Below, piece after piece: positions 9,275 through 46,280 of a stretch of DNA of 47,460 bases. Source of the stretch: a virus. How positions within the stretch are numbered: position 1 is the first letter of the stretch; each line of letters opens with the position of its first letter. Below the pieces are notes generated by a model, which saw only the letters and a list, made by a program, of their open reading frames with translations, was not told the DNA's origin and ran no database searches. Location: IMG/VR virus record IMGVR_UViG_3300007644_000005, positions 1 through 47,460 of that record. One strand, 5' to 3'. The position numbers and the translations under genes were made by a program.

Positions 9275-10983
9275 TATTTAACTCTATTTACTATGTGAAA
9301 ATTTAATTCACTATCAAAAAGAAGTGTTTCACCGTTAGTTTCAACCTTTATATCAACAAAATATTCTTGTGGTACCATCCAAGTTGTATCTAAGGTAAAA
9401 TAATTATTATTCATCGCCTTATTGGCTATTTCCCAATCAGTAATATATATTACCGCTGGTCCTTGTTTAACATATAACTTATAGTAAACAGTGTTACTCG
9501 TATAATACTCCGAAACAGTGTAAGGTTTTCTTAATAAAATATTAACCTTTCTAACCTCGCCCTGAGACAATTTTTCTTCTCTTTTAATTCCGCTAAGCGA
9601 TATACCGTATCTGGTATCGTCTAGCGCATCAATATTAAAATTAAAGTATTGATCAGCATCAATCGGGACAAACCTTAATTTTACGGTTGGTCTTTCTTTT
9701 CCATTGTAGAAAATATTAGACCAAAAATCATTATATTCTGTATAACTTGTATAAGTGTTTTCATCACCATAAACAACCACATAATAAACACCTTTAGTTT
9801 TTTGGCGAACTTCATAATTAACACCGTTTATTGTACAACTTGGTATTTGGTCTAGATTAGTTAGCTTACCATCTATAACCGAATAAAAGAACAGGTTATT
9901 ATTTTTACCGAGGTAGAAAGTGACCCTATCATCTTCTATATGGTCGTTATATCTTGTTTCAATGAATGGTTCAAAGAAAGTCTGAGTATGTCTAGTAAAC
10001 AACCCAAGTGCGAAGGTTTTTGGCCCGTCTGGAAATGTTAAGTTTTCTATGTCATCCGAGTATTTTAAACAAAACCCGTAATAGGTTGTGGTACCAGTTG
10101 TTATCCCAGTTGTTATCCCAGTTGTTATTCCCGTGGTAATCCCAGTTGTTATTCCAGTTGTTATTCCAGTTGTCACCCCAGTTGTTATCCCCGTAGTAAT
10201 TCCCGTAGTAATTCCAGTTGTTATCCCCGTAGTAATTCCAGTTGTCACCCCAGTTGTTATCCCCGTAGTAATTCCAGTGGTTGTACCCGTAGTCGAACCT
10301 GTTGTTGTACCCGTAGTCGAACCTGTTGTTGTACCAGTGGTAATATCATAAGTTATCCCTGTGGTGATACCAGTCGTTATCCCAGTTATAATACTATAAG
10401 TGATTCCAGTTGTAATCCCAGTTATTGGTGAATTTATTAATGAATTAACATAATTAGTTATATCCATTTCAATATCTTCATTACCCCAATCAAAATGTTG
10501 TGTTGCTATTGGTTGGCTACCAACTTGCACCGCACCAGATGGGCTAAAATCACTAACATTTGTTGCCTTTAACCAATTAGATGGTTCTAAAGCATAATCT
10601 TTATTTTCTGGTATACTGGTTGGTGATGGCATGAAGTCATAACCAGTACCCTCATCCCAAAATTGTTTTATTTCATGTAATTCTAAATCAAAAGATGTTG
10701 GTCTATAATTCTCACCAAAAAGTAAGTTATTAGATGTACTTAAAAAATCTTTAATATCAAAATTAGATGTGTTTTTTATTTTTAAAATATGTCTGGTGTC
10801 GCCATCTATATTTATTACCTTACTATTAACTAGGGCTTTAATTTCATCAAATGAACAATAAAACAAAAACCTGCTTTTGGATGAACCGAAATATAATTCA
10901 GACACCTGGTTTCTGCCCGTGTTAACATCACTATTTTTTACTATAGTGTTATTTTTATCAAAATATGTTCTATATATACCCAT
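9274..10983 (-). CDS. Fibre-like virion protein with threonine-rich repeat
   Basis: A 569-aa protein in three parts. Residues about 25-185 and 300-350 resemble a DNRLRE-type beta sandwich: LELHEIKQFWDEGTGYDF, an SNWLKATNVSD strand, DITNYVNSLI, then YYGFCLKYS. The sandwich is interrupted at residues 187-300 by about 28 copies of a four-residue unit T-T-G-(I/T/S/V). Residues about 350-569 are beta-rich and may be further virion domains. DNRLRE-like modules occur in surface proteins and phage appendages, so a tail fibre or decoration protein is likely (inference). The repeat is almost pure Thr/Gly/Ile and could be extended or O-glycosylated. The gene has its own late-type box 11 bases upstream and is co-transcribed with downstream small genes. 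Confidence 0.75.
   Translation of the reverse strand: MGIYRTYFDKNNTIVKNSDVNTGRNQVSELYFGSSKSRFLFYCSFDEIKALVNSKVINIDGDTRHILKIKNTSNFDIKDFLSTSNNLLFGENYRPTSFDLELHEIKQFWDEGTGYDFMPSPTSIPENKDYALEPSNWLKATNVSDFSPSGAVQVGSQPIATQHFDWGNEDIEMDITNYVNSLINSPITGITTGITYSIITGITTGITTGITYDITTGTTTGSTTGTTTGSTTGTTTGITTGITTGVTTGITTGITTGITTGITTGITTGVTTGITTGITTGITTGITTGITTGITTGTTTYYGFCLKYSDDIENLTFPDGPKTFALGLFTRHTQTFFEPFIETRYNDHIEDDRVTFYLGKNNNLFFYSVIDGKLTNLDQIPSCTINGVNYEVRQKTKGVYYVVVYGDENTYTSYTEYNDFWSNIFYNGKERPTVKLRFVPIDADQYFNFNIDALDDTRYGISLSGIKREEKLSQGEVRKVNILLRKPYTVSEYYTSNTVYYKLYVKQGPAVIYITDWEIANKAMNNNYFTLDTTWMVPQEYFVDIKVETNGETLLFDSELNFHIVNRVK
10084..10425 (-). repeat. 12-bp tandem repeat encoding (TTGI)n
   Basis: About 28 imperfect 12-bp units, in frame with the fibre-like gene, encode T-T-G followed by Ile in most copies and Thr, Ser or Val in others. 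Synonymous codons vary between units (for example ACTGGG/ACTGGA/ACTACG forms on the minus strand). A block of TTTG and STTG units (about res. 215-236) separates two ITTG blocks. The opposite strand reads as a VVIP repeat frame, which is only a shadow. Confidence 0.95.
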
Positions 10984-15175: not shown

Positions 15176-15889
15176 TCACGCATCCAAATAACTATCCTTA
15201 AAAAGCTTATATAATGACTTAAACCTTTTCATACTATTCCTAATTTCTTTAGTATTTAAGCCAGTCATATTGCGTATATATAGTAAAATAAGGTTTTTAT
15301 TAAACTTGGGTGAATTTTTACCATCAGTTACCTGTGAAAATAATTCTCGCCATTCTTCAAGTATTTTTACCAGGGAATGTCCAACCTTAAATTCATTATC
15401 GGATAAATCGTCAGCTTTTAAATCTTCTCTAATACTCGATGCTAACGACTCAATAAACATAGTTAAATCAATATCATCATTATCTATTCGATAAAGTAAT
15501 TCATCTCTTTTTAAGATATCACCTTCACTTTGATCAATATCAACGATTGACATGTTCTTTTTATATTCTTTAACCATTTCACCAAATAGGTAATTTTTAC
15601 AAATAGTACCGAAATATGAAAATGATCTCTTACCCTTTTCTGGTTTGAACTTTTCAAACTTTGTCATTAAAAATGATAGGGTGTCTGCATGTAGATCGTT
15701 GAACTCGTAAGATTGTCTATATAATTTATAGGTCCTAATAATACTTTCTATCATTGTATTGATAGGTTCTTGTAAATATTCTCTATAAATTTTTTCTCGT
15801 TCTTCAACATTAGTGGCATCTAGAAACATGATCACCGCCATTTCTTGATCTACACCATAGTAGTTGCGGTCTTTTTTCTTTCTTGCCAT
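15176..15889 (-). CDS. 55: Late sigma factor (T4 gp55-like)
   Basis: A 237-aa protein (T4 gp55 is 185 aa). Residues about 60-112 match the sigma region 2 pattern seen in gp55: FNDLHADTLSFLMTKFEKFK, a short loop, RSFSYFGTICKNYLFGEMVK and a basic end KEYKKN. In gp55 this part contacts the RNA polymerase clamp and the -10-like box. The C-terminal 60 residues (NKNLILLYIRNMTGLNTKEI onward) are helical, could contain a helix-turn-helix and exceed T4 gp55. It would direct host RNA polymerase to late promoters; the TATTTAT boxes in this window are the natural target (inference). It is last in the operon HAD-like, GT-B, GT2, sigma, joined to the GT2 gene by TAATG. Confidence 0.8.
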   Translation of the reverse strand: MARKKKDRNYYGVDQEMAVIMFLDATNVEEREKIYREYLQEPINTMIESIIRTYKLYRQSYEFNDLHADTLSFLMTKFEKFKPEKGKRSFSYFGTICKNYLFGEMVKEYKKNMSIVDIDQSEGDILKRDELLYRIDNDDIDLTMFIESLASSIREDLKADDLSDNEFKVGHSLVKILEEWRELFSQVTDGKNSPKFNKNLILLYIRNMTGLNTKEIRNSMKRFKSLYKLFKDSYLDA

Positions 15890-16722
15890 TACTCACTAAC
15901 TTCATTTTCCTCATAAATTATATTTCTATCTTCGTTAAACAAATACTCTTTTTTAGCGGCATCCATCCAAAATAAAGCTTCTTGCGGTTGTATCTTATAT
16001 TCAAGAGCTTCACTGTTTTTGTATAGCCAGAATAAAGAACCCTCTCTCATGTTTACGTGTTTATAACCTATTTTAGGTATAACCATAGACTTGTAACCAT
16101 TTTTATGGAAACGAAGTAAAAACTCGTAATTAAACGTTAATTTAATTTGTTTTAAACCCTTAATCTCATTAAAGACAGTGGTTTTAATTACCATACCACA
16201 AAGGCTTATATTCGGGTACTCAAGTAAAACGTCTAGATCTAAGTTACCTAAACTTTCGGTAAAGTTGTATGCCCAAACCGCTTCATTAGAAAATCCAACG
16301 AACTCATTTTTTTCCGTAACATCATTAACGATAGGTAAAAACATATCTACCTCTGGATAGGCTTTAACATACTCATCGACATTTTTATACCATGTTTTTG
16401 ATACCTCATCATCAAATTCCAAAATACTCATATACTCAGTATTAACATGTTTTGCTGCATAGTTAATCTGACTTTGGTAGTCGGTATCAAATTCGTTAAT
16501 TATTGTTCTAACATTTAGGTCCTTATAAGCTGTAAAGTCAATCGACTCCATTTTACTCACAACTTCCGCACAATTACATGTTACTATTAAAACCTCTTCT
16601 GGTTTAATTTCATTTCTATTAATAGATGACATTGCAATATCAAATAAGTCATCAAATTTTTGGTTCCCAACATTAGCAACTGAATGCACTGGGATTATGA
16701 CTGTTAAATTAGTTTTGCTCAT
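15889..16722 (-). CDS. GT2 family glycosyltransferase
   Basis: A 277-aa GT-A fold enzyme. It begins with the family start LTVIIPVHSVANVGN (res. 6-20), has the strand IKPEEVLIVTCN, and an acidic cluster EFDDE (about 118-122) where the metal-binding DXD belongs, followed by KTWYKNVDEYVKAYPEVD as in GT2 enzymes. The C-terminal region has LRFHKNGYK and an HVN triplet that may form the acceptor site. The likely reaction is transfer of a nucleotide-activated sugar; substrate unknown. It overlaps the upstream GT-B gene by 14 bases and the sigma gene by one. Confidence 0.85.
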   Translation of the reverse strand: MSKTNLTVIIPVHSVANVGNQKFDDLFDIAMSSINRNEIKPEEVLIVTCNCAEVVSKMESIDFTAYKDLNVRTIINEFDTDYQSQINYAAKHVNTEYMSILEFDDEVSKTWYKNVDEYVKAYPEVDMFLPIVNDVTEKNEFVGFSNEAVWAYNFTESLGNLDLDVLLEYPNISLCGMVIKTTVFNEIKGLKQIKLTFNYEFLLRFHKNGYKSMVIPKIGYKHVNMREGSLFWLYKNSEALEYKIQPQEALFWMDAAKKEYLFNEDRNIIYEENEVSE

Positions 16723-17788
16723 TTTGTTCTACTGATTTATTAATGTTTTCTTTTATTGTTTCTAATTTTCCGATTTTTTTGTTAAAGAGATATTCAAAAA
16801 CCTCACTAACGTTTTTATCAAAAATATCACTAGTATATCTGTCTAAAATTGTTTGGTCAACAGATTTTAAATTTTCAGGTAGTGTATCCTCTAACCAATT
16901 TTTAATAAAGCTGGAAACTATTTCAGCGATTTGGTTTTCATCATAAACCCAAATACCATTATCATCCGTCATCCACTCTGGTATAATGTTAGGTACTTTA
17001 CCGATAACTGGTACATTACACTTGATTGATTCAATAGGGAATCTACCGAAAGATGAATCGTCATCAACCCAAATTGATACGGCACACTCTCTAAGATTTT
17101 GTGCAAAGTCCTCATGATTCATAGCGTGCATATCTTTGAATGAGATAAACCTATAAAGTGGGTATTTTAAGTAGAATGCCTTAATAATTTTTGCTGCTTT
17201 TCTTGTGTCCCTACAGTGTATCGCAATGATTGGTTTTTGTGGTTTATCATTTCTTTTGAATGAGTCGCCAATAAATGGTTCAATAAATTGCACGTCTTTA
17301 ACTGGCACGGTATCTTCAATCATATTTTTTAACGTGTTACTAGTTGTAATACATTCCTCAACACCAAGATCAGTCCAAGATTTTCCTGGTGAAAAAGCTT
17401 CTAACATATAATCGTATGATTGAACATAAATAACCTTTTCAATGGTCATTTTTTCTATCTGTTCGAAAACGCTTCCATAAACTTCAGGTACGATAATAAA
17501 ATCTGAAGGGCCTACAACTAGATTATTGTCTTCAATTGACATGTGCTCTAATTCATCACATTCAGCACCATACCAAGAACCGACTTTAATAAAGTCATTC
17601 TTTTCGTGTAGTATTGATACATTATATCCCATTTTTTTAAGTGTTAGTGCTTGTGAATAAATGTGCATAACACTAGATTTAGCATTACCTTTAGTATCAG
17701 GTACTAAAAAGATAATTTTTTGTTCCTTATTTTTAATTTTTTCAATAGCGGAATCAAGATTTTTAAGTATTTCTTTAGTTTTTTCCAT
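16709..17788 (-). CDS. GT-B glycosyltransferase (GT4-like)
   Basis: A 359-aa protein. The N-terminal domain starts after a 20-residue helix with KIIFLVPDTKGNAKSSVMHI and contains QALTLKKMGYNVSIL, typical of GT4 acceptor domains. The C-terminal Rossmann half has PIIAIHCRDTRKAAK and the donor-site motif FGRFPIESIKCNVPVIGK (about 247-265), equivalent to the E-x7-E signature. No signal peptide or membrane anchor. It probably adds one sugar from a nucleotide donor in the host cytoplasm. It overlaps both neighbours (14 bases each). Confidence 0.85.
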   Translation of the reverse strand: MEKTKEILKNLDSAIEKIKNKEQKIIFLVPDTKGNAKSSVMHIYSQALTLKKMGYNVSILHEKNDFIKVGSWYGAECDELEHMSIEDNNLVVGPSDFIIVPEVYGSVFEQIEKMTIEKVIYVQSYDYMLEAFSPGKSWTDLGVEECITTSNTLKNMIEDTVPVKDVQFIEPFIGDSFKRNDKPQKPIIAIHCRDTRKAAKIIKAFYLKYPLYRFISFKDMHAMNHEDFAQNLRECAVSIWVDDDSSFGRFPIESIKCNVPVIGKVPNIIPEWMTDDNGIWVYDENQIAEIVSSFIKNWLEDTLPENLKSVDQTILDRYTSDIFDKNVSEVFEYLFNKKIGKLETIKENINKSVEQNEQN

Positions 17789-18413
17789 TTTTTTCCTTAT
17801 TTAGTTTTTTTAGGGTTTTAAATAATTCTTTATTGTTAATAATAGTATAATCCGACTTAATGTCAAGATTAAAATCATTTTGGTATTTGACTGAGATTTT
17901 ACCTTTTGGCTTCGCCTTTAAAATTTTAGGGTTATCGGTAATAATGACATCACACTCAACCCAAAAATCTTTCCATTTTTGTGGAAACAATATCTTATTT
18001 AGGTTAAAGTAGTTCTTACTTAGGAAAAATAATGTTGCTGCTTTTGATCTCTGGCTTTCATTATTTAATAATACAATCTCTAGCTTACTTTTTTTAGAGA
18101 AGTCCGATATCTTTTTTATTAGTCCAGGCTCTGTCTCATCGGTTCTTCCGAAAATTTCAAAACATGCATCTTCGTACAAAAATTTATCTAAATTAAAAGA
18201 ACCGTCTTTTTTATTTTCAACTAGTTCAACCTCTTCTTGATCTGGTTTAAACTCAATTGATTCTGTTTCACCAGTAATGTCTGGGAATGATGCTTGTAGG
18301 TTGAATGGATTTATAGGTTCGATAGCTTCTTTTTCAAACTCAAACTCATATAAATCCTTCAACTTACTTAAATGATCCCTAAGGATATTATTTACTGTTA
18401 TACCGATAACCAT
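17775..18413 (-). CDS. HAD-like protein lacking catalytic aspartates
   Basis: A 212-aa protein with the outline of a HAD-superfamily phosphatase: motif I position MVIGITVNNILRD (res. 1-13), motif II in EIVLLNN (about 110-116), Lys-rich motif III region and motif IV in CDVIITDNP (about 154-162). The phage and bacterial phosphatases with this start read DxDGxLRD; here the two aspartates are replaced by Thr and Asn (TVNN), so normal phosphoaspartate chemistry is not expected. The insert of residues 25-85 is acidic. It opens the operon leading to the two glycosyltransferases and the sigma factor. It may be a regulator or binding protein. Confidence 0.6.
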   Translation of the reverse strand: MVIGITVNNILRDHLSKLKDLYEFEFEKEAIEPINPFNLQASFPDITGETESIEFKPDQEEVELVENKKDGSFNLDKFLYEDACFEIFGRTDETEPGLIKKISDFSKKSKLEIVLLNNESQRSKAATLFFLSKNYFNLNKILFPQKWKDFWVECDVIITDNPKILKAKPKGKISVKYQNDFNLDIKSDYTIINNKELFKTLKKLNKEKNGKN

Positions 18414-18414
18414 A

Positions 18415-18438
18415 TTTTATCATTTTATGATAAAAATA
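18415..18438 (-). promoter_or_regulatory. Variant box TATTTTTAT plus leader hairpin
   Basis: The minus strand has TATTTTTAT starting 25 bases before the ATG at 18413. It runs into a perfect 9-bp inverted repeat, TTTTATCAT-AAA-ATGATAAAA (18435-18415), ending one base before the ATG. This could be a promoter with an operator, or a hairpin that hides the start codon. Confidence 0.45.
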
Positions 18439-18463
18439 AGTCTGGTAAGTAGAAAAATAAAGA

Positions 18464-19219
18464 TTACATCTTACTTTCTCTAAAAATTTGTTCAATTTTT
18501 TTAATTAGTGGGTTTCTAACAACATCATCTTCACCTAAAACAACGGTACCGACCTCGTCAAAATCTTTAAATTTATTGATTATAAAGTTTAGTGAACTTT
18601 CACCCTTCTTTTTCATATCAATTTGATTTTCATCACCCAAAAATATCATTTTAGAATTCTCACCTAGACGAGTCATAATTGTTCTTATATTATCTATTGA
18701 GATGTTTTGGGCCTCGTCAATAATGGTGATGGAATTATCGATATTGATACCTCTCATATACGCAATCGGCATTTCCTCTATCATGTTGTTAGCCCTCAAA
18801 ACTTCAACATTATGTCTACCAATAACCTTTTCAAAATTATGTAGGAAGGAATACATAAACGGTTCCATTTTTTCTTTCATGGTACCTTTTAAAAACCCAA
18901 TTTCTTCATCTTTTAATGTTGTTACAGACTTAACAATAACAATTTTTCTATATCTTGAATCGTTTTTTAATAATTCCAAAGCCATCGCACAAGATAAAAA
19001 CGTTTTACCTGTACCTGGTAATCCAGAGCATATCACAATTTCTTTTTCTTTAATCTCGTTAATTAGTTTTTTTTGATTTTGTGTTTTACATTTAATCTCA
19101 ACTTTAATTTTATCCATAGGGTTACCGCTGTAACCTCTGGATATTGCCTCAAATGCCTCCATCTCTTCTTCTGGGGATAATCTTTTTCTACTTCTTCTGC
19201 TAGTCTTGTTTGAACTCAT
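18464..19219 (-). CDS. phoH: PhoH-like ATPase
   Basis: A 251-aa P-loop protein of the PhoH family, common in large phages. Walker A GLPGTGKT is at res. 66-73, the strand KIVIVKSVTT at about 92-101, Walker B SITIIDEAQN at 163-172, followed by TRLGENSKMIFLGDENQID (sensor region), as in PhoH and SF1-like ATPases. The N-terminal 40 residues are basic and probably disordered. Family members are thought to be RNA- or nucleotide-related ATPases or helicases; the phage role is unsettled. It follows the GT14-RgpF gene by seven bases, so it belongs to the sugar-gene transcript. Confidence 0.93.
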   Translation of the reverse strand: MSSNKTSRRSRKRLSPEEEMEAFEAISRGYSGNPMDKIKVEIKCKTQNQKKLINEIKEKEIVICSGLPGTGKTFLSCAMALELLKNDSRYRKIVIVKSVTTLKDEEIGFLKGTMKEKMEPFMYSFLHNFEKVIGRHNVEVLRANNMIEEMPIAYMRGINIDNSITIIDEAQNISIDNIRTIMTRLGENSKMIFLGDENQIDMKKKGESSLNFIINKFKDFDEVGTVVLGEDDVVRNPLIKKIEQIFRESKM

Positions 19220-19226
19220 ATCGTTT

Positions 19227-20861
19227 TTAGTTTATTGTTTTAATTTTATAGTTTAATTGTGAACACTGGGCACCAAATACTCTTTCATATGCATGGTGCC
19301 AATCCCCATCACGCCAACCATTTTCAGATAAATCTTTTGATAATTTATCTATTAAACCTGGCTTATTATAATAATAATCGAAAATTTCTGATCTACACCA
19401 AAACATAGTACCAAAAATTGCATAAAAATCTTTTTTGTGGTCTATTTTTAATTTTTTACATATTGTTTTGAATTTTTCTTCATTACCACCTAACCAATTT
19501 AAATGCATATGTTTACTAGTTCCGATCATACCAACATCATTTTGCTCTTTAAATATAGTAATTATTCTGTTAATATCATAGACATTATTTATAGTTCCAG
19601 ATAATAAATCTTGTAACCAACCACTCGATTGTTCCGCATCTAGGTATGTTGATTTTTTTGTGTGTAAAAATAAATAAAGGTCATAGATTTTATTTTGACT
19701 GTATATCGATTTTAAGTTATTAAACTGCCCGTTTATATCTCTACCAACATTTCTATCTGTGTAATTTATTTTAACGTTTTCTAGTGTGCTATTAATATAC
19801 TCAACACAATGATCGTTACCCTCCATACCATCAACAAAGTTAAAATGGAAATCAACTAAACCATTTAGCGGTAACAATCTGGGTATTATTTTATCAATTA
19901 ACACTTCATTAAAATATGAGTGTACTAGAACCGCAATTTTTAAATCATTTGTTTTAACCGTATCAAATTGCTCTACTTTTGTTGACGTATCAACCTTCCT
20001 AAAAAACAAAGACTGGTTTTCCTCTTTGGATATTTGATTTACAGCGAATAATTCCTTAGCATTAACCCCCTTAAATTCATCTAAGTTAACATTTAAGTGG
20101 GTTTTGGGGTGAAAGGGTTCTGTTTTGTTTTTCCAATCAACTACAGTTACTGGATAATTTATATTTTCCTCATCAAAGTTTTGATAATATTTTTTAAATA
20201 GGTTAATATAATAATGCTCGTCTGGTACAATAGATTTATTAAAATTATCCGTATAGTCGTTATCCAAAATAAATTTAACATGATCACGTTTTAGTACCAT
20301 CCATTGTGATTGCTTATAAAACAAATCAAAATTCATGTTGGTTATTGACTTCTTCCTAATATTATTTTCAATATCATCCCAAATATAATAATACACCCAA
20401 GATTTGTTTTCTTTAATCAGTTTATTATACGTCACATCAAAATCGTACATTGGTATGCATGAATCTGAAACTAATACGAAAAATTCATTGGTTGGGTCCT
20501 GATAAGCCGCCTTTAATAGGTTGTTTGTTGCCTTAATTAATGATATACCACCCCAGTTTGTTTGTACTTTATGGTCAATATCGTAGTCAATTAAAAATTT
20601 TTGGGTTACTTGGCTTGGGTTTTTTACGTGTGAGTATAGATTAACTTTATCTAGGTTTTTAATTAGAAAATCATACCAGATGTCACCACGTTTTAAATCA
20701 CCTACAGATAAAAACATAAAAGCGACTTTTGTCTTGTCACTTTTTTTTGTTATTAAGTCGGTGTATTTGTAATCTTTTAGTTTTACACTATTATCAAAAT
20801 GATCTGGTGTGAAGAACTTTTTATTATCCTTAACAGATACCTTATTAACAATTTTAATCAT
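19227..20861 (-). CDS. GT14 (core-2-type) and RgpF-like fusion glycosyltransferase
   Basis: A 544-aa fusion. Residues about 45-260 match the core-2/I-branching family (GT14): KVAFMFLSVGDLKRGDIWYD, the ISLIKATNNLLKAA helix, FFVLVSDSCIPMYDF, and SQWMVLKRDHVKFI. Residues about 308-544 match RgpF, the rhamnan synthesis protein family: IAVLVHSYFNEVLIDKII, NVGRDINGQFN, YDLYLFLHTKKS, VGMIGTSKH, and FGTMFWCRSEIF. GT14 enzymes add branches to glycans, and RgpF-type proteins add or process rhamnose-type chains. The fusion suggests two steps of one oligosaccharide. There is no membrane segment, and no late-type box is visible before it. Confidence 0.82.
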   Translation of the reverse strand: MIKIVNKVSVKDNKKFFTPDHFDNSVKLKDYKYTDLITKKSDKTKVAFMFLSVGDLKRGDIWYDFLIKNLDKVNLYSHVKNPSQVTQKFLIDYDIDHKVQTNWGGISLIKATNNLLKAAYQDPTNEFFVLVSDSCIPMYDFDVTYNKLIKENKSWVYYYIWDDIENNIRKKSITNMNFDLFYKQSQWMVLKRDHVKFILDNDYTDNFNKSIVPDEHYYINLFKKYYQNFDEENINYPVTVVDWKNKTEPFHPKTHLNVNLDEFKGVNAKELFAVNQISKEENQSLFFRKVDTSTKVEQFDTVKTNDLKIAVLVHSYFNEVLIDKIIPRLLPLNGLVDFHFNFVDGMEGNDHCVEYINSTLENVKINYTDRNVGRDINGQFNNLKSIYSQNKIYDLYLFLHTKKSTYLDAEQSSGWLQDLLSGTINNVYDINRIITIFKEQNDVGMIGTSKHMHLNWLGGNEEKFKTICKKLKIDHKKDFYAIFGTMFWCRSEIFDYYYNKPGLIDKLSKDLSENGWRDGDWHHAYERVFGAQCSQLNYKIKTIN

Positions 20862-20888
20862 AAAATTTAATAGTGTTTACTGAATATA

Positions 20889-21563
20889 TTAACCTAGTTG
20901 TTTTATATTTTTGTTTTTAACATTTAAACCATCTAGTAAAGAATAAAACTTATCAAAGTCTTTACCATGTTCTCTCATAAAACCGTGTACCTCCATACCT
21001 AATGTGTTTATTTCTAAATCTTGTATTAGATTTGAACCTTCGATTATATCAAACTCAGCGCCCTCACAATCGATTTTTAACAATTTTAGTTCTGTTATAT
21101 CATAACCTTTAATTATGTCGTCTAAAGAGATCGTTTCAACACTAAATTCCTTGGTGTCTCTCTGTATAAAACAACTACTAGCACCAGTATTAGTTGTATC
21201 TAGGGAAATCGTTAAAATTTTACCAGTCTCACTATAAACAGCTTTATTAACTGGTATTATATTGTAAACTGAATTAAGTTTAATATTATATAATAAACTT
21301 TGGAAGTTTACTGGGTGTGCCTCAAATGCGTATATCTTTATCTTTGGGTATTTTTTAGCTAAATATATCGACACGCAACCAATGTTCGCCCCTATATCCA
21401 GAACAACATCATTCCTACCAAAATCTATTTTTTTTATACCGTATTCATCTTCCCTAAGGGCCTCCTTAACAACCCACTTTAGTGTGTCGCTACCGATTAC
21501 ATCTTGGAACTTTAGTTCAATCCCGTCAACGTTAAAAGCTTTTATCTCTTTATCTTTTATCAT
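20889..21563 (-). CDS. FkbM-family methyltransferase
   Basis: A 224-aa SAM-dependent methyltransferase of the FkbM family. SAM motif I is VVLDIGANIGCVSIYLAKK (res. 53-71), motif II KIYAFEAHPVNFQSLLYNI with the acidic ribose-binding Glu, and the family motif LLKIDCEGAEFDIIEG (about 159-174). Members O-methylate sugars and polyketides, often in polysaccharide clusters. Here it probably caps a sugar added by neighbouring transferases (inference). Its ATG overlaps the stop of the pyruvyltransferase-like gene by four bases (ATGA). Confidence 0.88.
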   Translation of the reverse strand: MIKDKEIKAFNVDGIELKFQDVIGSDTLKWVVKEALREDEYGIKKIDFGRNDVVLDIGANIGCVSIYLAKKYPKIKIYAFEAHPVNFQSLLYNIKLNSVYNIIPVNKAVYSETGKILTISLDTTNTGASSCFIQRDTKEFSVETISLDDIIKGYDITELKLLKIDCEGAEFDIIEGSNLIQDLEINTLGMEVHGFMREHGKDFDKFYSLLDGLNVKNKNIKQLG

Positions 21564-22372
21564 TCCGTATCAATTAATCTTAAAACCTTTTTATAGAAAT
21601 CATCATTTCTTTTTCTACAATCATTCAGATATGTAAAATCATAAGAATTTTTTATTTGGTCGAAAGTTGGATTAATTACAGTGTCGTAATTTATGAATCT
21701 TATATTTAATGGTAAATCGAGTAATTTTGTCTTTGTTGTTGTTTCCACAGTATAAACTGTTTTACCCAACAAAGATGCCCAATATGTCCCATGGTAGGTG
21801 TTAGTAACGATGACCTTGGCCCTAGCAATTTTTTCAATAATCTCATCCATCGGATCGCTATTTTTTGCTGTTTCAAAATTAATAATATGTGTATTTTTTT
21901 CGACCAACTTATTCATAAGGTTTGTTAGTCCCTCAAAATGGTGGTAATAGTACAATACATCTGTCGATTCTGTTATTGTAACATTATCGAAAAGATCACT
22001 TTTACAACTAACACATGGTACATATAAAAAGCGATTCATTTTTAGGTTTTTAAATACCGAATCCCTAAGACCTATGAGGTCATAATCGGCCACATATTCT
22101 GGGTACGTATATCTATAGCTATTCTGGCCCGCTCCCCAGATAATTTTTTTCTTATCTTCTAATCTAGAGATATATTCTAAAGAATCGTCAAAATAGTCTA
22201 AATCAATTAAACCACCACCGCCAACAACAACTACATCATAATCGTCAAAATTTTTAAATAGTCTAATATCACCAACATCTGAATTTGGTACATCGTAATA
22301 TAATTTAGGTTGGCATTTTAGGTCCCCAGTATTTACGGTTTTAGTTTCGTGTAGAAAAATTACTTTTTTCAT
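21560..22372 (-). CDS. Polysaccharide pyruvyltransferase-family protein
   Basis: A 270-aa protein of the WcaK/CsaB family. It starts KKVIFLHETKTVNTGDLKCQ, like the N(x)GD start of this family, has the glycine loop VVVGGGGLIDLD (res. 48-59), IIWGAGQN (about 77-84), and the C-terminal motif VTNTYHGTYWASLLGKTVY (about 190-208). The last usually contains the catalytic His and SxHG pattern; here it is TYHG. The usual reaction is ketal pyruvate transfer from PEP onto a hexose of a surface glycan, which adds negative charge. It overlaps both neighbours by four bases. Confidence 0.85.
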   Translation of the reverse strand: MKKVIFLHETKTVNTGDLKCQPKLYYDVPNSDVGDIRLFKNFDDYDVVVVGGGGLIDLDYFDDSLEYISRLEDKKKIIWGAGQNSYRYTYPEYVADYDLIGLRDSVFKNLKMNRFLYVPCVSCKSDLFDNVTITESTDVLYYYHHFEGLTNLMNKLVEKNTHIINFETAKNSDPMDEIIEKIARAKVIVTNTYHGTYWASLLGKTVYTVETTTKTKLLDLPLNIRFINYDTVINPTFDQIKNSYDFTYLNDCRKRNDDFYKKVLRLIDTE

Positions 22373-24414
22373 TCCTGATACATTAATTTTAATTTCTTAT
22401 TTTTTTTCCACTTTTTCAACATAATCTTATGTTTTTCTTCGAATAGACTATTACCGAAAATTTTATTACCAGAGCCACCCCATACGTGGTAGAACTTATT
22501 ATTAAAATGGAATCTATATATCTTACCACCTAGAACTTTTGCCTGGAAGCAAAAATCGGTGTCTTCATACCAGAATGGTGCAAAATCTAAATCAACCCAA
22601 ATATGGTTTAGTATTTCGGTTCTAAATATCTGACAACAACCAGCTAGTGTGTCAACTTCACCTTCGTATGAACTATCATCATTAACATCTTCGTGTGTAC
22701 CATGAACCCACCCATTAAAGAATGCACCAACAGTACCACAAATCCATATATTTTTATCATTTAATACCTCTTTAGCATCATCAATAAACGATTCATCTTT
22801 TAATTTTGAATCTGAATCCACGCTAAATACTACGTCAGCGGTAACATTTTTAAACAATACATCTCTACCACCCGCAACACCTATATTGTCTGGGCCAAAG
22901 ATTACTTTAACACCATTAATCGTGTTAATATAATTTAAGTAAGCTAATAATTCCTCATCGGTAGATCCGTTATCATAAACTATTACTTCTTTAACGTCTT
23001 TTCTATTTAAAGCTCTTATATATGTATCGACATAACCAATTGTTTTTTCTGGTCTATTATGTGTTAAGAATATAAATGAAACTGTTGCGTCTCTATTATC
23101 AATTAGGTAATCTTTAAATAGATGGTATATGTTATTTCTTTTATCAAATATTGCATTGTAATCGATTTTCGATAAAGTTACCTGTTCATTTGTTTCCCAT
23201 AAGTGCATCGAATAGCTGTCATTAAGCTCAGCTAGTGCTAAAGCGTTATTTGTTAATAAATAAGTTTCCGCTTCATTCCATAAGAATGGGAAAAATTTCT
23301 TAGGTGATAATATTGTAACATTATCTGGAAATTCTTTTGCTATATAATATGGTTTAACAACTGAGTGAAAATCCCATTTACTCTGGTTAAAATCTTTGTA
23401 CGATTTAATCCATTCTGTTGCAAATAAAGATCTTTTTTCTGATAACATTATTGCGTTACATAGACCATAATAATCCCTATTACCTCTACCACCAGAATTT
23501 TGTATACCAATAACAAATTCATTATCTAATAGGTCGTCAAAAGATTTATTTACGAATGTGACTATATCCATATAAATACCACCAGCAAATCTTAACATTT
23601 CTAACCTAACTATATCCGACATGTGAGCGAAATGTTCAACCTCATTACCCATAAAATCTGGGATTAACTCAGTTTTAACTGTTTTTAGGTATATTTTCGC
23701 CCTATCCCACCATTTACCTTTAATATCGTAGTGATGATATAGAATAATTTTATCTGGTTTAATTTTATTAACAATACTTAAAACGCATAAATAATTAAAG
23801 AAAGTAAATTCTGGGTCTTTTTTAAAACCATAACACAAATGGACTATTTTAGGTATTTTTTTATCTACTTCAATATTTTTGATTAATTCAAATACTTTTG
23901 GATAAATTTCTTTATCATTTAAGTACCCAGTAAAATTTTTATTGAATCCAGAAAAATCTAAAAAATCCTTATCTAGACCTTCTAAAAAATAAGAATAATC
24001 AACATCATCTTTATATTCTTGTTTAATAGTGGTACCTCTTTTAATAACTATATTTTCATCGCCAATAATATTTGGTTTATCTTCGTTATCTTTATTAGAC
24101 CCATTTAAAACTTCTTTTACTGGTGGGGTTTTTAATATCTGTTTTGTAACTGTTTTCGTAGTTGGTTTTTCTTTAATAGGTTCAATTTCAACTGAACTCA
24201 TAACAATTTCTTCTTTGGGTAATTCCTTTGGTCTCGCTTGACTAGATTTTATGATTGTGTTTATCGAGTGTTTTTTAATTTCTGGTAATTGTTGTTCAAC
24301 AATTTTTATATCATCATTTACCACAAGATCAATAGCCGAATCCGTACCCTCGGAAACAGATTTAATTAAACCCCTAGAAATCGTTTTACTTTTTTTTGAA
24401 TAAAATTTACCCAT
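22369..24414 (-). CDS. GT32 and GT2 fusion glycosyltransferase
   Basis: A 681-aa fusion. Residues 1-185 are basic, Thr/Pro-rich and likely disordered. Residues 187-410 resemble OCH1-type GT32: IPKIVHLCYG, YHHYDIKGKWWD, HMSDIVRLEMLRFAGGIYMDIV (264-285). The usual DxD of the GGxYxDxD motif is D-I-V, so the second metal-binding Asp is missing. Residues 444-680 are a GT2 domain with VSFIFLTHNRPEKTIG, VIVYDNGSTDEE, VVFSVDSDSKLK (DSD at 533-535) and the FAPFWYEDTDFCFQAKVLGG acceptor segment. It probably adds two successive sugars. It overlaps the following gene by four bases and starts two bases after the preceding gene. Confidence 0.85.
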   Translation of the reverse strand: MGKFYSKKSKTISRGLIKSVSEGTDSAIDLVVNDDIKIVEQQLPEIKKHSINTIIKSSQARPKELPKEEIVMSSVEIEPIKEKPTTKTVTKQILKTPPVKEVLNGSNKDNEDKPNIIGDENIVIKRGTTIKQEYKDDVDYSYFLEGLDKDFLDFSGFNKNFTGYLNDKEIYPKVFELIKNIEVDKKIPKIVHLCYGFKKDPEFTFFNYLCVLSIVNKIKPDKIILYHHYDIKGKWWDRAKIYLKTVKTELIPDFMGNEVEHFAHMSDIVRLEMLRFAGGIYMDIVTFVNKSFDDLLDNEFVIGIQNSGGRGNRDYYGLCNAIMLSEKRSLFATEWIKSYKDFNQSKWDFHSVVKPYYIAKEFPDNVTILSPKKFFPFLWNEAETYLLTNNALALAELNDSYSMHLWETNEQVTLSKIDYNAIFDKRNNIYHLFKDYLIDNRDATVSFIFLTHNRPEKTIGYVDTYIRALNRKDVKEVIVYDNGSTDEELLAYLNYINTINGVKVIFGPDNIGVAGGRDVLFKNVTADVVFSVDSDSKLKDESFIDDAKEVLNDKNIWICGTVGAFFNGWVHGTHEDVNDDSSYEGEVDTLAGCCQIFRTEILNHIWVDLDFAPFWYEDTDFCFQAKVLGGKIYRFHFNNKFYHVWGGSGNKIFGNSLFEEKHKIMLKKWKKNKKLKLMYQE

Positions 24415-24415
24415 T

Positions 24416-25864
24416 TTAGATTATAAAGTCTTTTTTATCTAGTTCCGAATAAAATTTTTCCGAGTGTTCTTCTTTCGGAAAGGCGTATTCAAAACCAAGT
24501 TTATTTTTTTTATTAAAGTCGCTAATTCTTTTTTTATAAATAGACATTCTATTTAAAAAATAGTCTAGACCTAATCTTTTATAATGTAATAGTTTTATCG
24601 GTTCATTAAAATATTTAACGTCACCCATTGGGGCTGCCACGTGACACCCAAAATTAAAGTTAATTGACTTTATATTTTTTGGTTTAAACATTACTAATTT
24701 ATCAAATAAACTATTTCTAAAACCAGTTTTTACAATATCAGTTAACTTATGGTCATAATCAAAATTAAATTTTTCTATTATCATATCATAACCCTCTGGT
24801 TTTACTATAGTTGAGTCGCTGTTATGGAAGTCTATAATATATTTTTTAAAATCATCAACATATAAAAACTCATCCATATCACAAACAATAACAATATCAG
24901 CCTCATTAACCGAATTTTTCCAAGCGTTATTTTTTATCTGTAAATAAGCGTCATCACGTATTTCGCCTTTAGTGTCGTAAGGTACGACTAACGTTTTGGG
25001 GTGTTTCCTTAATAACTTAACACTATTGTCGTTTGATTTATTATCATAAACAATTATTTTGTCAACATAATTTTCATAGTGTTCTAAGAAAAACGGTATA
25101 ATTTTTTCTTCATTCCAACAAAGGACGTGCATATGGACTTTTGGTAAAGCCTTGTCAAAAATTATATGTGAGTTTTCATTCAAACATATTGGTAATTTAT
25201 TAGAATATAAACCCTCAAATTTTACTTTATTGGTTTCCCAGGTTTCATTTGTTTGACCAACAGATTTATGTAATAAAAGGATGTTGGATATTAAGCCCAC
25301 TTTAACGCCAGATAAATGGTTATCAAAACAAAATGGTATATCATAAAAATGAAAGCCCTCAAAGGACTCATTAAATCTGTTTTTGATTTTTTCTCTATTT
25401 ACTGCAATAAATAAACCATCAATGGTAACCATTTCTTTTATTTGATTACCGTAGCTTTCAGAATACTTATTAGTCCAAACTTTAACACCATCTGTATGTT
25501 TTACAGTTCCGTGCATCGAGTTCCTTATTGACCACCATCTACCATCAATCATATGATCGGTACCAGCAACACCTAAAATACCATATTCTGGATTTTTTTC
25601 GAAGTGTTTTATAACTTTTTCACCCCAGTTTTTAGTTTCAAAAATAATATCATCGTGACAAAAAATAACAATATCAGAATTAGCCTCATCTAAACCACGA
25701 TTATAAAGTTCAGCCAGGGAATATTCATTGTTATTTTCATACGCAATAACTTCAACACCCTTATACATACACGTTTTTTTAACGTGATCAACAAAAGCAT
25801 TATCGACTTTCCTAGTTGAAAATACTACACTAATTTTTGGTTTATCCGTTATCATCGTCATCAT
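24416..25864 (-). CDS. Two-domain glycosyltransferase
   Basis: A 482-aa protein with two GT-A domains. The first (res. 9-225) has ISVVFSTRKV, SLAELYNRGLDEANSDIVIF, the metal motif HDD (70-72) and GILGVAGTDHM, as in glycosyltransferases related to streptococcal surface-glycan enzymes. The second (242-450) starts KVHMHVLCWNEEKIIPFFLE, has IIVYDNKSNDNSVKLL and DMDEF (329-333), resembling GT2/GT92 enzymes. The start is uncertain: ATG codons at 25864, 25861 and 25855 all lie within the end of the upstream 104-aa gene; the last gives MITDKPKISVVF. An internal TATTTAT box at 24537-24543 is not near a gene start. Confidence 0.85.
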   Translation of the reverse strand: MMTMITDKPKISVVFSTRKVDNAFVDHVKKTCMYKGVEVIAYENNNEYSLAELYNRGLDEANSDIVIFCHDDIIFETKNWGEKVIKHFEKNPEYGILGVAGTDHMIDGRWWSIRNSMHGTVKHTDGVKVWTNKYSESYGNQIKEMVTIDGLFIAVNREKIKNRFNESFEGFHFYDIPFCFDNHLSGVKVGLISNILLLHKSVGQTNETWETNKVKFEGLYSNKLPICLNENSHIIFDKALPKVHMHVLCWNEEKIIPFFLEHYENYVDKIIVYDNKSNDNSVKLLRKHPKTLVVPYDTKGEIRDDAYLQIKNNAWKNSVNEADIVIVCDMDEFLYVDDFKKYIIDFHNSDSTIVKPEGYDMIIEKFNFDYDHKLTDIVKTGFRNSLFDKLVMFKPKNIKSINFNFGCHVAAPMGDVKYFNEPIKLLHYKRLGLDYFLNRMSIYKKRISDFNKKNKLGFEYAFPKEEHSEKFYSELDKKDFII

Positions 25865-26156
25865 CTTCTAGTATTGGTTTTCTATCTAACGTATCACCTA
25901 TAAATTTTAAAACAGGTATGAAACCTTTAACGTATTGTAAGAAAATGAATTTTTGATTTAATTCATTTAACTCACGTTCTAAAAATGTAGCTAACTTATA
26001 CTCATCAGAATTTAATGGGTAAACAAACGCATATAGCACTTTATCACCCACATCTATCCTTTTACCAGACCAAACTGTTTTATAAGTTATCTTGTCTAGT
26101 ACATCTGGTGTTATTTCATTATACACCTTTATTTGTTCCCTAAATTCGTTAAACAT
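25842..26156 (-). CDS. Unknown 104-aa protein
   Basis: A 104-aa protein with helical ends and a beta-like centre (KVLYAFVYPLNSDEYKLA), ending in a run of five Asp. Residues about 66-85 (QKFIFLQYVKGFIPVLKF) are hydrophobic enough for membrane association but too charged to be a clear transmembrane helix. Not recognised. It overlaps dUTPase by one base and the following glycosyltransferase by up to 23. Confidence 0.65.
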   Translation of the reverse strand: MFNEFREQIKVYNEITPDVLDKITYKTVWSGKRIDVGDKVLYAFVYPLNSDEYKLATFLERELNELNQKFIFLQYVKGFIPVLKFIGDTLDRKPILEDDDDDNG

Positions 26157-26761
26157 TACAATATACCTGTTGATCCGAATCCACCTAAACCACGATCACT
26201 ACTAGATAGTGATTCAGATTTAATGAATTTTATTTTATCTCTTGTTTGTACTGGCGCTATGACACCCTGTGCAATTCTATCACCATTTTTAACAAAGAAT
26301 GATTGGTCTTGGTCCGTATTGTATAGTATCACACCAATCTCGCCACGATAACCTGAATCAACAGTACCTGGGCTATTTAGAACCATTATACCGTTTTTTA
26401 AGGCTAAACCGCTTCTAGACCTAACTTGTAGTTCAAAACCTAATGGTATTTCAAAATACAAACCAGTTTTAATTAAACATCTGTTACCAGGTAATATTTC
26501 TATTGAATATTCACCATCTGAGTTTTTATCGGTGACACTAGCCCTAATATCAAAACCGCTATCACCCTCTTTTTCATATGATGGGTCTGGGTTGACGGAT
26601 TTATTTATGAATGAAACTCTTAGTTTTGGTGTCATTGATTCGTTGTCATAGTCCCAATCAGACATAAATTGTCTAGCCTCATCCAATAACTGATCCAATT
26701 CTTTTTTAGAATCATCGTCATCTTGAAATAAATCGTTTACGTTCAATTCGTTAATATTCAT
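26156..26761 (-). CDS. dut: dUTPase
   Basis: A 201-aa trimeric-type dUTPase, converting dUTP to dUMP and pyrophosphate, lowering uracil misincorporation and feeding dTMP synthesis. All five motifs are present: GDSGFD (66-71), VRSRSGLA (113-120), NSPGTVDSGYRGE (129-141), NGDRIAQGVI (159-168) and DRGLGGFGSTG (189-199). The N-terminal 45 residues are an acidic helical extension beyond the usual 150 residues. It overlaps a glycosyltransferase gene by four bases (ATGA), showing that nucleotide metabolism and glycan genes share a transcript. Confidence 0.96.
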   Translation of the reverse strand: MNINELNVNDLFQDDDDSKKELDQLLDEARQFMSDWDYDNESMTPKLRVSFINKSVNPDPSYEKEGDSGFDIRASVTDKNSDGEYSIEILPGNRCLIKTGLYFEIPLGFELQVRSRSGLALKNGIMVLNSPGTVDSGYRGEIGVILYNTDQDQSFFVKNGDRIAQGVIAPVQTRDKIKFIKSESLSSSDRGLGGFGSTGIL

Positions 26762-27981
26762 ACTAAATTTTTATATATTTCGGCTCTAGTTTTTGTCACA
26801 TTATTTATATCGTAAGTATCTTTAACTGTCTCATATAACCTTTCACCAAGATCTTCAACTAATGATGGGTTATCAACGAGCCTTTTCATATGTTGGGCCC
26901 ATTGTTTATGGTTTTTAGAACTCTCAACTAAAAGTGCATTACCCTTAGGATTCAAAGAACCGCCTTTATCAATCATACTAACTAAGTCGATCGTGTAAGG
27001 GCCATAATTTTGGGCTATGATTGGTTTTTTATGGAAACCAGCTTCAATAATTTTTAATTGGGACTTGTACTTATTAAAATTGTTAGCGAATAGTGGGGCC
27101 AAAGCAACATCAAATTCATTATAACCTTTTGCATACGATTCGATTGATTTAGTCCAAACTCTTTTGTACGGCATGTTCCCATCATCATATGTTAATTGGT
27201 TATCAAATTTAAATAGATGCTTTAAATAATCTGGATATTTCTCTAAAATTTTAAAATTGTTGGTAATGAAAATTTCATACATAAACCACGTTGTTTCAAT
27301 TGGTTGCATTGGTCTTTCCATCCACTGTTGGGTTTCTTGATTAAAGGCACGCACAGTACCTCTGGTATCGTAGCCACATAAAACGAATTGAATTTTGTCT
27401 TCTAGCCCCATAATTTTTTGTGGCATATCCTTTAAAAGTTCAATATCTTTAATGTGTGACGAACCACCTAACCACCCAAATCTAAGTCTTTCTGATTCAG
27501 TGGGTTTTGGTTTAAACTGTGGTTCATTAGGGTTTACGGCATTAGGTAAAATAACACAATTTTTATTATGTTTTAACACCTCTTTTCTTAAAATTTCTGT
27601 TGTAACCGTAACCAAATCAGCTTCTCTGACAACTGAAACGATTTTACCCGCATAGTCTAATCTTTTAGCTTGGTGGTATAGACCATGTGATTGGTCTAGG
27701 GTCCAGTGATCATCTAGATCAATTACAACTTTACCCCCAAAAGATTTTATTGTTTTAATAATATTAAGACCATCCTCATAGTTACCACCAGGTATCCTAT
27801 GAAAAAAGAATATATTAAATTTTTTTAAATATGTGATATCATTAAAATCAATATTCATATTGATTTCAACAAAAAATTCATCACCGTGGTTATTTTGTAA
27901 CGTTACGTGCGGATCAACACATCTATATTTACCTGATCCAGCACGATCGTTAGGATTTACTAAAACATTAATTTTACCCAT
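26758..27981 (-). CDS. GT4-like glycosyltransferase
   Basis: A 407-aa GT-B enzyme. The N-terminal domain has INVLVNPNDRAGSGKYRCVD, KVVIDLDDHWTLDQSHGLYH (about 84-103) and ADLVTVTTEILRKEV; the C-terminal domain has RLRFGWLGGSSHIKDIELLK, IQFVLCGYDTRG, FDVALAPL and the donor-binding KIIEAGFHKKPIIAQNYG (about 318-335). This is the pattern of phage and bacterial GT4/GT1-like transferases. It likely transfers a sugar to a glycan, protein or nucleic acid acceptor; substrate unknown. A variant promoter and a palindrome precede it. Confidence 0.87.
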   Translation of the reverse strand: MGKINVLVNPNDRAGSGKYRCVDPHVTLQNNHGDEFFVEINMNIDFNDITYLKKFNIFFFHRIPGGNYEDGLNIIKTIKSFGGKVVIDLDDHWTLDQSHGLYHQAKRLDYAGKIVSVVREADLVTVTTEILRKEVLKHNKNCVILPNAVNPNEPQFKPKPTESERLRFGWLGGSSHIKDIELLKDMPQKIMGLEDKIQFVLCGYDTRGTVRAFNQETQQWMERPMQPIETTWFMYEIFITNNFKILEKYPDYLKHLFKFDNQLTYDDGNMPYKRVWTKSIESYAKGYNEFDVALAPLFANNFNKYKSQLKIIEAGFHKKPIIAQNYGPYTIDLVSMIDKGGSLNPKGNALLVESSKNHKQWAQHMKRLVDNPSLVEDLGERLYETVKDTYDINNVTKTRAEIYKNLV

Positions 27982-27989
27982 ATAATCAG

Positions 27990-28027
27990 TTTCCTATAAA
28001 AATAGGAAATTTATTGGAAAAATCAAA
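27990..28027 (-). promoter_or_regulatory. Variant promoter with overlapping palindrome
   Basis: The minus strand has TATTTTTATA starting 23 bases before the ATG at 27981, the usual distance of late boxes. It can equally be read as a host-type promoter: TTTG (28027-28024), 19 bases, TATTTTTA (one mismatch to TAnnTTTG). A perfect inverted repeat, TTTCCTAT-4-ATAGGAAA (27990-28009), surrounds the box and could be an operator or leader hairpin. Confidence 0.5.
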
Positions 28028-28039
28028 ACATTTTTTAAA

Positions 28040-28789
28040 TTATTTGGGTACGACCACACCACGTCTAGATACAACGTCTGATGCCTTAATATTAGCGTAG
28101 TATATTGACTCGTCTATGCTACCAGTTTCATGATATTTAAGTATGAACGCTGAGGTAAATGTGTCACCCGCACCGCTAACATCTATAGTATCTTTTGGTT
28201 TTTTTGTCGGGTAAACCTTACCCATATATTCGGCACCTTTTTTACCTAAAGTTGTTATTATGTTAAGTTTTTTTATTAAAACTTCATCCTGTTGTTCTCT
28301 TTCAGATTTATTAAGCTTTATGAAACTTAATGTTGAGAATGATGGGACTAAAATCCTTTTACTATCCAATATAGACAACTTAGCGTGGTGACCTATTAAT
28401 GTTATTGTCTCTGTGGTTAAAAAACCCTTATTATAATCGCTAATAACAACAATATCCGCCTCACTAATTATCTTAATTGTTTCTGGTGTAATCGTGAATT
28501 TCTCTATCAAATCCTCACCTTCATCCATTCTAAGTATCATTTGATTACTCTTTTCATCGACATACCTAGTTTTAATAATTTTTTCTGGTTGGTGTAAAAA
28601 TGTTATATTTATGGAATTATTTAAAGCCTTTAGATTTTCTACAACATTACCAGCCATTCCAGGGTTTTTTGTTATTTTTCTTGGGTTTAATACTGGTACT
28701 GGTGCTTCTGGGCATAATCTATTAACATCACCATATACAAATTTATCAGTGCAGTTTTCACCAATAACAACAACTTTTATATTATCCAT
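28040..28789 (-). CDS. HldE/PfkB-type sugar kinase
   Basis: A 249-aa ribokinase-fold kinase most like the heptose kinase domain of HldE (RfaE). Evidence: the N-terminal KVVVIGENCTDKFVYGDVNR with LCPEAPVPVL (res. 5-34), which mirrors GDVxLDxYWYGxxxRISPEAPVPV; GMAGNVVENLKAL (44-56), RYVDEKSNQMILRMD (75-89), ISDYNKG (116-122) and the PfkB signature DVSGAGDTFTSAF (203-215) with catalytic Asp209. At 249 residues it is shorter than the usual 310-320. I choose ATG 28789; the longer frame from TTG at 28804 includes a promoter-like sequence. It could phosphorylate heptose 7-phosphate or another sugar phosphate for the neighbouring transferases. Confidence 0.85.
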   Translation of the reverse strand: MDNIKVVVIGENCTDKFVYGDVNRLCPEAPVPVLNPRKITKNPGMAGNVVENLKALNNSINITFLHQPEKIIKTRYVDEKSNQMILRMDEGEDLIEKFTITPETIKIISEADIVVISDYNKGFLTTETITLIGHHAKLSILDSKRILVPSFSTLSFIKLNKSEREQQDEVLIKKLNIITTLGKKGAEYMGKVYPTKKPKDTIDVSGAGDTFTSAFILKYHETGSIDESIYYANIKASDVVSRRGVVVPK

Positions 28790-28793
28790 GTAA

Positions 28794-28801
28794 CAAATAT
28801 A
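28794..28801 (-). promoter_or_regulatory. TATATTTG motif just before the kinase gene
   Basis: The minus strand has TATATTTG four bases before the ATG at 28789, matching the Bacteroidota -7 box, immediately after a terminator T-run. No TTTG at 17-21 bases upstream is seen, and transcription would start at or in the start codon, so this may be chance or a leaderless start. Confidence 0.3.
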
Positions 28802-28802
28802 C

Positions 28803-28829
28803 AAAAAAAATGGGGGCTTTTAAACCCCC
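28803..28829 (-). terminator. Intrinsic terminator
   Basis: On the minus strand GGGGGTTTAAAAGCCCCC (28829-28812) folds to a G/C-clamped hairpin, followed by A and eight T (28810-28803). It ends the operon finishing with the 63-aa gene and separates it from the sugar-gene block. Confidence 0.9.
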
Positions 28830-28853
28830 AATCAACACTTTTTTTATTTAATG

Positions 28854-46250: not shown

Positions 46251-46280
46251 GGGGGACGCTTTGCGACCCCCTTTTTTTTT
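46251..46280 (+). terminator. Terminator after tail tube
   Basis: GGGGG (46251-46255) pairs with CCCCC (46267-46271), with an inner CGC/GCG pair, a single A-A mismatch and loop TTT, followed by nine T (46272-46280). Its T-run overlaps the stop codon of the convergent endonuclease gene. Confidence 0.9.

Follow-up and report, generated by a model that had tools for sequence, protein, structure and literature searches.

In the stretch of viral DNA analysed here (IMG/VR virus record IMGVR_UViG_3300007644_000005, 47,460 bases; the window), the genes between positions 15,176 and 28,804 form a two-layer glycan locus, consisting of a constant core of glycosyltransferases (GTs) and a slot occupied by a variable cassette. 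The window is the whole record; it has no terminal repeat and is a fragment of a larger genome. Since it encodes a portal protein, large terminase, tail sheath, family B DNA polymerase (PolB) and helicase, it is assigned to a T4-like myovirus. Among named phages, Microcystis phage Mel-JY01 has the nearest portal protein (42%), followed by Flavobacterium phages immuto (38%). No named phage with DNA close to the sugar-gene region was found by DNA search of phage records.

From 28,804 down to 15,176 every gene lies on the minus strand, forming a single co-directional run with dut and phoH among the sugar genes. The features are, from the highest coordinate down:

28811-28830 (minus): intrinsic-terminator-like hairpin followed by a T run (stem of 8 pairs, 5 of them G-C; tail of 8 T), just upstream of the kinase gene
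28040-28804 (minus): PfkB-family kinase resembling the HldE kinase domain (PF00294, 2.7e-13; TIGR02198, 1.2e-36), probable ATG start near 28789
26758-27981 (minus): GT4a, core GT-B glycosyltransferase (phrog_7162 glycosyltransferase, 3.3e-44; hhalign 99.8% to phi92 gp164)
26156-26761 (minus): dUTPase, dut, left anchor of the locus (PF00692, 1.3e-19)
25842-26156 (minus): g104, small protein without Pfam or PHROG match, placed by synteny, in nearer relatives only
24416-25864 (minus): GT2x2, two GT2-type domains in one protein (PF13712, 8e-26; PF13704, 2.8e-15)
22369-24414 (minus): cassette, fusion of a GT32/Caps_synth-type and a GT2 domain (PF00535, 1e-11; PF04488, 3.9e-6; PF05704, 3.8e-6)
21560-22372 (minus): cassette, polysaccharide pyruvyltransferase-like (PF04230, 2.5e-8; private cluster c26)
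20889-21563 (minus): cassette, FkbM-type methyltransferase (PF05050, 1.4e-20; cluster c4, in 10 signatures)
19227-20861 (minus): cassette, GT14/Core-2 branching domain fused to an RgpF-like domain (PF02485, 4e-28; private cluster c27)
18464-19219 (minus): PhoH-like ATPase, phoH, right anchor of the cassette (PF02562, 1e-57)
17775-18413 (minus): conserved protein, called 'HAD-like' in the original prediction, upstream of GTB2 in 78 of 78 testable groups of relatives
16709-17788 (minus): GTB2, core GT-B glycosyltransferase, distant relative of Actinobacillus AmGGT/Agt (profile against PDB 8xsg, E 1.4e-16)
15889-16722 (minus): GT2c, core GT-A (GT2-type) glycosyltransferase with an EFDDE acidic motif (PF00535 in 32 of 32 aligned members)
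15176-15889 (minus): sigma-like gene closing the run (weak PHROG 234 match)

Neighbouring genes overlap by 1, 14, 14, 4, 4, 23, 1 and 4 bases; phoH is flanked by gaps of 50 and 7 bases, and the other gaps are 27, 1 and 58 bases long. The original prediction, made from the letters of the window and its open reading frames (ORFs), had these genes joined by overlaps of 1-14 bases. One overlap is longer, several junctions are gaps, and phoH overlaps neither neighbour. Instead of the seven GT genes counted there, we find six proteins that carry GT domains, eight domains in total, and the GT14, GT2, GT32-GT2, double-GT and GT-B assignments stand. The pyruvyltransferase-like and FkbM methyltransferase assignments agree with Pfam. 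The RgpF half of 19227-20861 is visible through relatives alone, as the C-terminal half aligns with proteins that match RgpF at 5.6e-24 and 1.3e-27. The name 'HAD-like' given to 17775-18413 has no match in Pfam or PDB behind it. The proposed HldE/PfkB-type kinase does match PfkB, but it scores 126 bits against TIGR02198, where the HldE equivalog cut-off is 345. Homologs of the kinase occur in few relatives, and it is an accessory gene outside the core.

The total number of terminator-like sites is within chance; the hairpin at 28811-28830 is the strongest of them and probably bounds the sugar-gene transcription unit on its upstream side. Promoter matches across the region are no more than chance would give, and no tRNA and no Rfam match was found there.

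Relatives of the locus were collected through three queries, the sigma-like gene, GT4a and a GTB2 profile; the profile search of IMG/VR yielded at least 592 confirmed relatives. The 165 loci with a full GTB2 were annotated with profiles and clustered at 95% GTB2 identity into 88 groups. The cassettes were surveyed in 78 group representatives, with 480 cassette proteins; some cassettes extend past the fetched locus, and their left border is outside the view.

GT4a, GTB2 and GT2c are the constant core of the locus. As single sequences all three fall below Pfam cut-offs, and all are confirmed by alignments and other libraries. The residues E102, D104, D105 and E106 of GT2c are invariant in the family, and the match of the GTB2 profile to the solved glucosyltransferase 8xsg covers about 290 residues. 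The 88 groups show one fixed order: PhoH, 'HAD-like', in many cases a small ORF (about 90 amino acids), GTB2, GT2c, sigma-like. GT2c follows GTB2 in all 86 testable groups, and the sigma-like gene follows GT2c in 86 of 86, overlapping it in 67. GT4a is upstream of dut in 15 of 15 testable groups. Since loci retrieved via any one of these genes contain the others, this linkage is not just an artefact of the choice of loci. Thus the comparison of gene order with relatives, suggested along with the original prediction, shows that these genes are not unrelated singletons: the core keeps its order and position across the groups. The core adjoins the sigma-like gene and late structural genes.

No match to GTB2 or GT2c was found by tblastn in 50,697 phage records. 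Among 84,980 bacterial genomes GTB2 had a single match, in a metagenome-assembled genome labelled 'bacterium'; as this match sits on a phage-like contig, it gives no host. The product of 15176-15889 is a probable late sigma factor, as originally predicted. Alone it scores weakly (E 0.022 with the PHROG late sigma family, 0.057 with Pfam). Flavobacterium phage immuto and Microcystis phage Mel-JY01 each encode a homolog, annotated only as hypothetical protein.

The second layer is the set of genes between GT2x2 and phoH, which is a replaceable cassette in a fixed insertion slot, empty in some lineages. When the window is aligned with DNA of its nearest relatives, the match runs to approximately 19.1-19.25 kb and resumes at approximately 24.5 kb, with about 70-77% identity, and nothing aligns between these points. 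The unaligned interval (19227-24414) comprises exactly four genes, GT14-RgpF, FkbM, pyruvyltransferase and GT32-GT2, and homology stops near the start codon of phoH. No repeat structure stood out at the borders. The GC content of the cassette is 0.295, compared to 0.306-0.342 in windows of the same length outside it. In the loci compared, GT14-RgpF, the pyruvyltransferase and GT32-GT2 occur only in this phage and in near-identical contigs, and FkbM-type genes recur. GT32-GT2 forms a cluster (c25) present in this phage only; a viral scan returned near-identical contigs only, and tblastn in phage records gave no match to the fusion. A bacterial origin of the GT14-RgpF gene was sought in the 84,980 genomes, and no relative was found.

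The 480 cassette proteins fall into 198 clusters, of which 122 are singletons; orthology was assigned by BLAST, which splits distant homologs. In the 36 cases where the slot is closed at both ends, the interval is either 31-51 bases long and without genes (six groups) or 1.1-7.9 kb long. GT2x2 accompanies every occupied closed cassette except one and is missing from the six empty ones; it is thus a companion of occupied cassettes. The turnover is far faster than that of the neighbouring genes. In pairs of phages whose GTB2 proteins are 70-85% identical, a homolog is present in the partner cassette for 16% of the cassette genes closest to phoH, and 69% of the pairs share none, whereas the four genes after the sigma-like gene are common to both partners in 100%. 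Below 45% identity, 1% of the cassette genes are shared, as compared to 56% of the four genes after sigma. Hence the sugar-gene cluster originally described at 15.9-28.8 kb does exist as a minus-strand run with dut and phoH, but it is not one conserved 13-kb set. Likewise, a complete oligosaccharide made in this gene order could apply to this one phage only, as four of the genes are replaceable and three of these are private.

Scans of 93 and 139 cluster representatives showed which families fill the slot. The top ones are GT2, epimerase/GDP-mannose dehydratase, FkbM and other methyltransferases, and DegT aminotransferase; further families are GT25, GT29, GT8, RgpF, UDP-sugar dehydrogenase, nucleotidyltransferases, GNAT and pyruvyltransferase. 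GT11 and WbsX genes occupy the slot in other phages. When 30 representatives were scanned singly, 25 belonged to sugar-type, methyltransferase or HAD/nucleotidyltransferase families, three had no match, one was a domain of unknown function and one an IMP dehydrogenase (IMPDH). No tail-fibre family is among the 25 commonest in the tallies of cassettes, the slot being between dut/GT2x2 and phoH. In some relatives the slot holds a NeuB synthase and a PseF-like cytidylyltransferase with GT29 or GT8, which by their families point to a nonulosonic-acid (sialic-acid-like) theme. Examples of such pathway genes are the NeuB synthase of locus L039 (4644-5501), the PseF-like cytidylyltransferase of L031 (2445-3116) and the sialyltransferase-type GT29 of L005 (419-952). 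A lone IMP dehydrogenase/GMP reductase-like gene lies between dut and phoH in L139 (7062-8156), the sole non-sugar cassette seen. The combination of core GTs, GT2x2 and variable outer enzymes would by analogy resemble the layered O-unit loci of bacteria.

Some loci contain additional ORFs. An ORF of 332 amino acids lies on the opposite strand at the same site between phoH and the 'HAD-like' gene in L059, L062, L086 and L156. Between GTB2 and GT2c, there is an ORF of 233 amino acids in L042 and L119 and one of 286 amino acids in L037. These inserted ORFs are possibly homing endonucleases. Elsewhere in the window, the ORF of 132 amino acids at 46279-46677 (minus) is, by eye, a candidate Vsr-type (very short patch repair) endonuclease.

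Moraphages are jumbo phages of freshwater Bacteroidota whose core genes include four GT orthogroups; sigma, PolB, dUTPase and PhoH are likewise described as core genes or as genes that many of them share (PMC12619734). The window holds a set of this type: T4-like hallmark genes, PolB, dUTPase, PhoH, the sigma-like gene and several GTs. In the bS21-encoding lake Bacteroidetes phages, PhoH is found throughout and an FkbM gene is among the most transcribed (PMC9723584). The long relatives of the window reach 206-321 kb, the moraphage criterion being a genome above 200 kb and the window itself a 47-kb fragment; bS21 is matched at E ≤ 0.001 in 10 of 17 long relatives, in 8 of them over the cut-off. 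The window very probably belongs to the broad moraphage/bS21-phage lineage, and its host is therefore likely to be a member of the Bacteroidota.

Where could the glycan go? None of the 480 cassette proteins has two or more membrane segments predicted by hydropathy, the one method applied, and a holin-like ORF of the window, used as control, shows two. The initiating phosphoglycosyltransferase PF02397 and the flippase PF01943 were found in none of the 17 long relatives, which are fragments, so that these absences are not proof; bacterial controls were positive, and the GtrA and WecA profiles were not run. In the absence of such proteins, the pathway looks soluble and cytoplasmic, and the direct acceptors would most simply be cytoplasmic as well, that is, virion proteins before assembly, or DNA. 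Moreover, the nearest solved relative of GTB2 is a soluble glucosyltransferase, and its homolog Agt elongates glucose on glycopeptides (PMC12159676).

The reading that we favour, at even odds, is that the core GTs build a short common glycan on virion proteins, with the cassette setting interchangeable outer sugars. On such a scheme, the core GTs would be produced in the cytoplasm of the host at about the stage of late transcription. GT4a, GTB2 and GT2c would assemble the common glycan on at least one virion protein, and GT2x2 would extend it. The cassette would then add and cap the outer sugars, here GT32, GT2 and GT14 products with pyruvate and methyl groups, and nonulosonic-acid-like, deoxy- or amino-sugars in the case of relatives. 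With the conserved flanks as sites of recombination, the phages would gain a switchable surface glycotype, and a change of glycotype could affect adsorption, protect the particle or make it resemble the host. The broader proposal, a serotype-like glycotype system in widespread uncultured Bacteroidota phages, where a soluble core of three GTs primes the virion and a recombining cassette sets outer sugars including sialic-acid-like nonulosonic acids, is tentative and falls somewhat short of probable.

Several points weigh against virion glycosylation. No acceptor protein was identified. The original prediction offered the Thr repeats of a virion-type protein (9274-10983, minus), which has a long Gly-Ile-Thr-Thr repeat. 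Its orthologs range from those without the repeat to those with an equally long one, so that the tract appears to expand and contract. As a conserved acceptor the Thr/Gly repeat is rejected: only a minority of orthologs have long repeats, and most phages that share the core GTs lack the repeat in this protein. The specificities of the enzymes are deduced solely from their families. Among named relatives of the core, the strongest is the phi92 homolog of GT4a, and it has no assigned product. Finally, host enzymes could provide a lipid carrier and a flippase, and then the missing membrane genes would be compatible with a target on the host surface.

Such host-surface remodelling, in which the enzymes extend or alter lipopolysaccharide (LPS), O-chain or capsule precursors via host carriers and export and thus block superinfection, is unlikely but deserves to be taken seriously. 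Cassette matches include WbsX, RgpF, GT25 and GT29, families known from bacterial surface-polysaccharide loci. Similar polymorphic sugar clusters have been read as acting on the host surface in cyanophages (PMC7824862) and pelagimyophages (PMC7029224). On the other hand, no cassette encodes a membrane component, the two membrane-step families are absent from the long relatives examined, and the sigma-like gene to which the locus is linked points to late expression. Thus, of the virion and host-surface targets named in the original prediction, the virion is favoured by the wholly soluble pathway.

The third target named there, DNA, is disfavoured, and it is improbable that the GTs decorate modified bases of the phage genome against restriction. 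The core GTs do adjoin dut and replication genes, the T4 alpha-glucosyltransferase gene lies within 2 kb of gene 55, and hypermodification of DNA with various glycans by virus-encoded GTs has been reported (Pyle et al. 2024, as cited in PMC12619734). However, the T4 gene is on the other side of 55 than GTB2 is relative to the sigma-like gene. The GTB2 profile compared with T4 alpha-glucosyltransferase (AGT) gave an hhalign probability of 0.2%, and no such enzyme is among the PDB matches of GTB2; the orthology prompted by the proximity to gene 55 is thus ruled out by both sequence and gene order. A hydroxymethylase resembling thymidylate synthase (TS) is ruled out too, as the clear PF00303 proteins of the long relatives, fragments as these are, keep the Asn of LGLPFN and are true TS, and no hydroxymethylase was found in these relatives. 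In addition, the phi92-like phages, in which GT4a has homologs, show exceptional sensitivity to restriction (PMC8594841). It is more improbable still that the slot is a generic hypervariable region gathering unrelated auxiliary metabolic genes or morons without a common product. The many singleton clusters and the lone IMPDH-like cassette are in line with that; however, sugar-pathway enzymes dominate the cassettes, and random acquisition would not yield the presence of GT2x2 with every other occupied closed cassette.

At this locus, GT and sugar-activation content differs between close relatives, as in other polymorphic sugar islands of T4-like phages. The LPS clusters of P-SSM2-type cyanophages and the host recognition cluster of pelagimyophages are likewise sets of several GTs with sugar-activation genes that vary between T4-like relatives (PMC7824862, PMC7029224). 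The pelagimyophage islands mix tail fibres and GTs between structural genes, whereas here the sugar-gene slot lies between dut and phoH beside a core of three GTs. The phi92-like phages (Justusliebigvirus) have a cluster of four GTs, gp163-gp166, without annotated membrane partners, as here. GT4a is homologous to both gp164 and gp163; however, the phi92-like cluster has no GTB2 or GT2c tblastn match and no linkage to a sigma-like gene. Glycosylation of capsids and tails in mycobacteriophages (Freeman et al. 2023, as cited in PMC12619734) is similar in the proposed target, phage GTs acting on virion proteins; an acceptor was reported there, unlike here. Actinobacillus AmGGT/ApAgt (PDB 8xsg; PMC12159676) are soluble chain-elongating enzymes, but bacterial and of low identity to GTB2. 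For moraphages and bS21 phages, the available text of PMC12619734 only lists the GTs and leaves variable islands as future work; the locus, its fixed order, the cassette slot and the turnover are not described in the accessible parts of PMC12619734 and PMC9723584. New relative to the known polymorphic islands are the universal GT core tied to a sigma-like gene, the fixed dut-phoH slot, the absence of common tail-fibre families from it and the lineages with an empty slot.

Phage-made glycans are usually viewed in terms of single serotype-conversion or DNA-modification genes. GT4a, GTB2 and GT2c are a short list of genes for an acceptor hunt, and the locus is a source of uncharacterised glycosyltransferases and offers a genetic test of the role of virion sugars. 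If the proposed glycotype system is real, it would amount to O-antigen-like variation on the particle of a lytic phage, and surface-sugar variation would be a main evolutionary axis of widespread freshwater phages.

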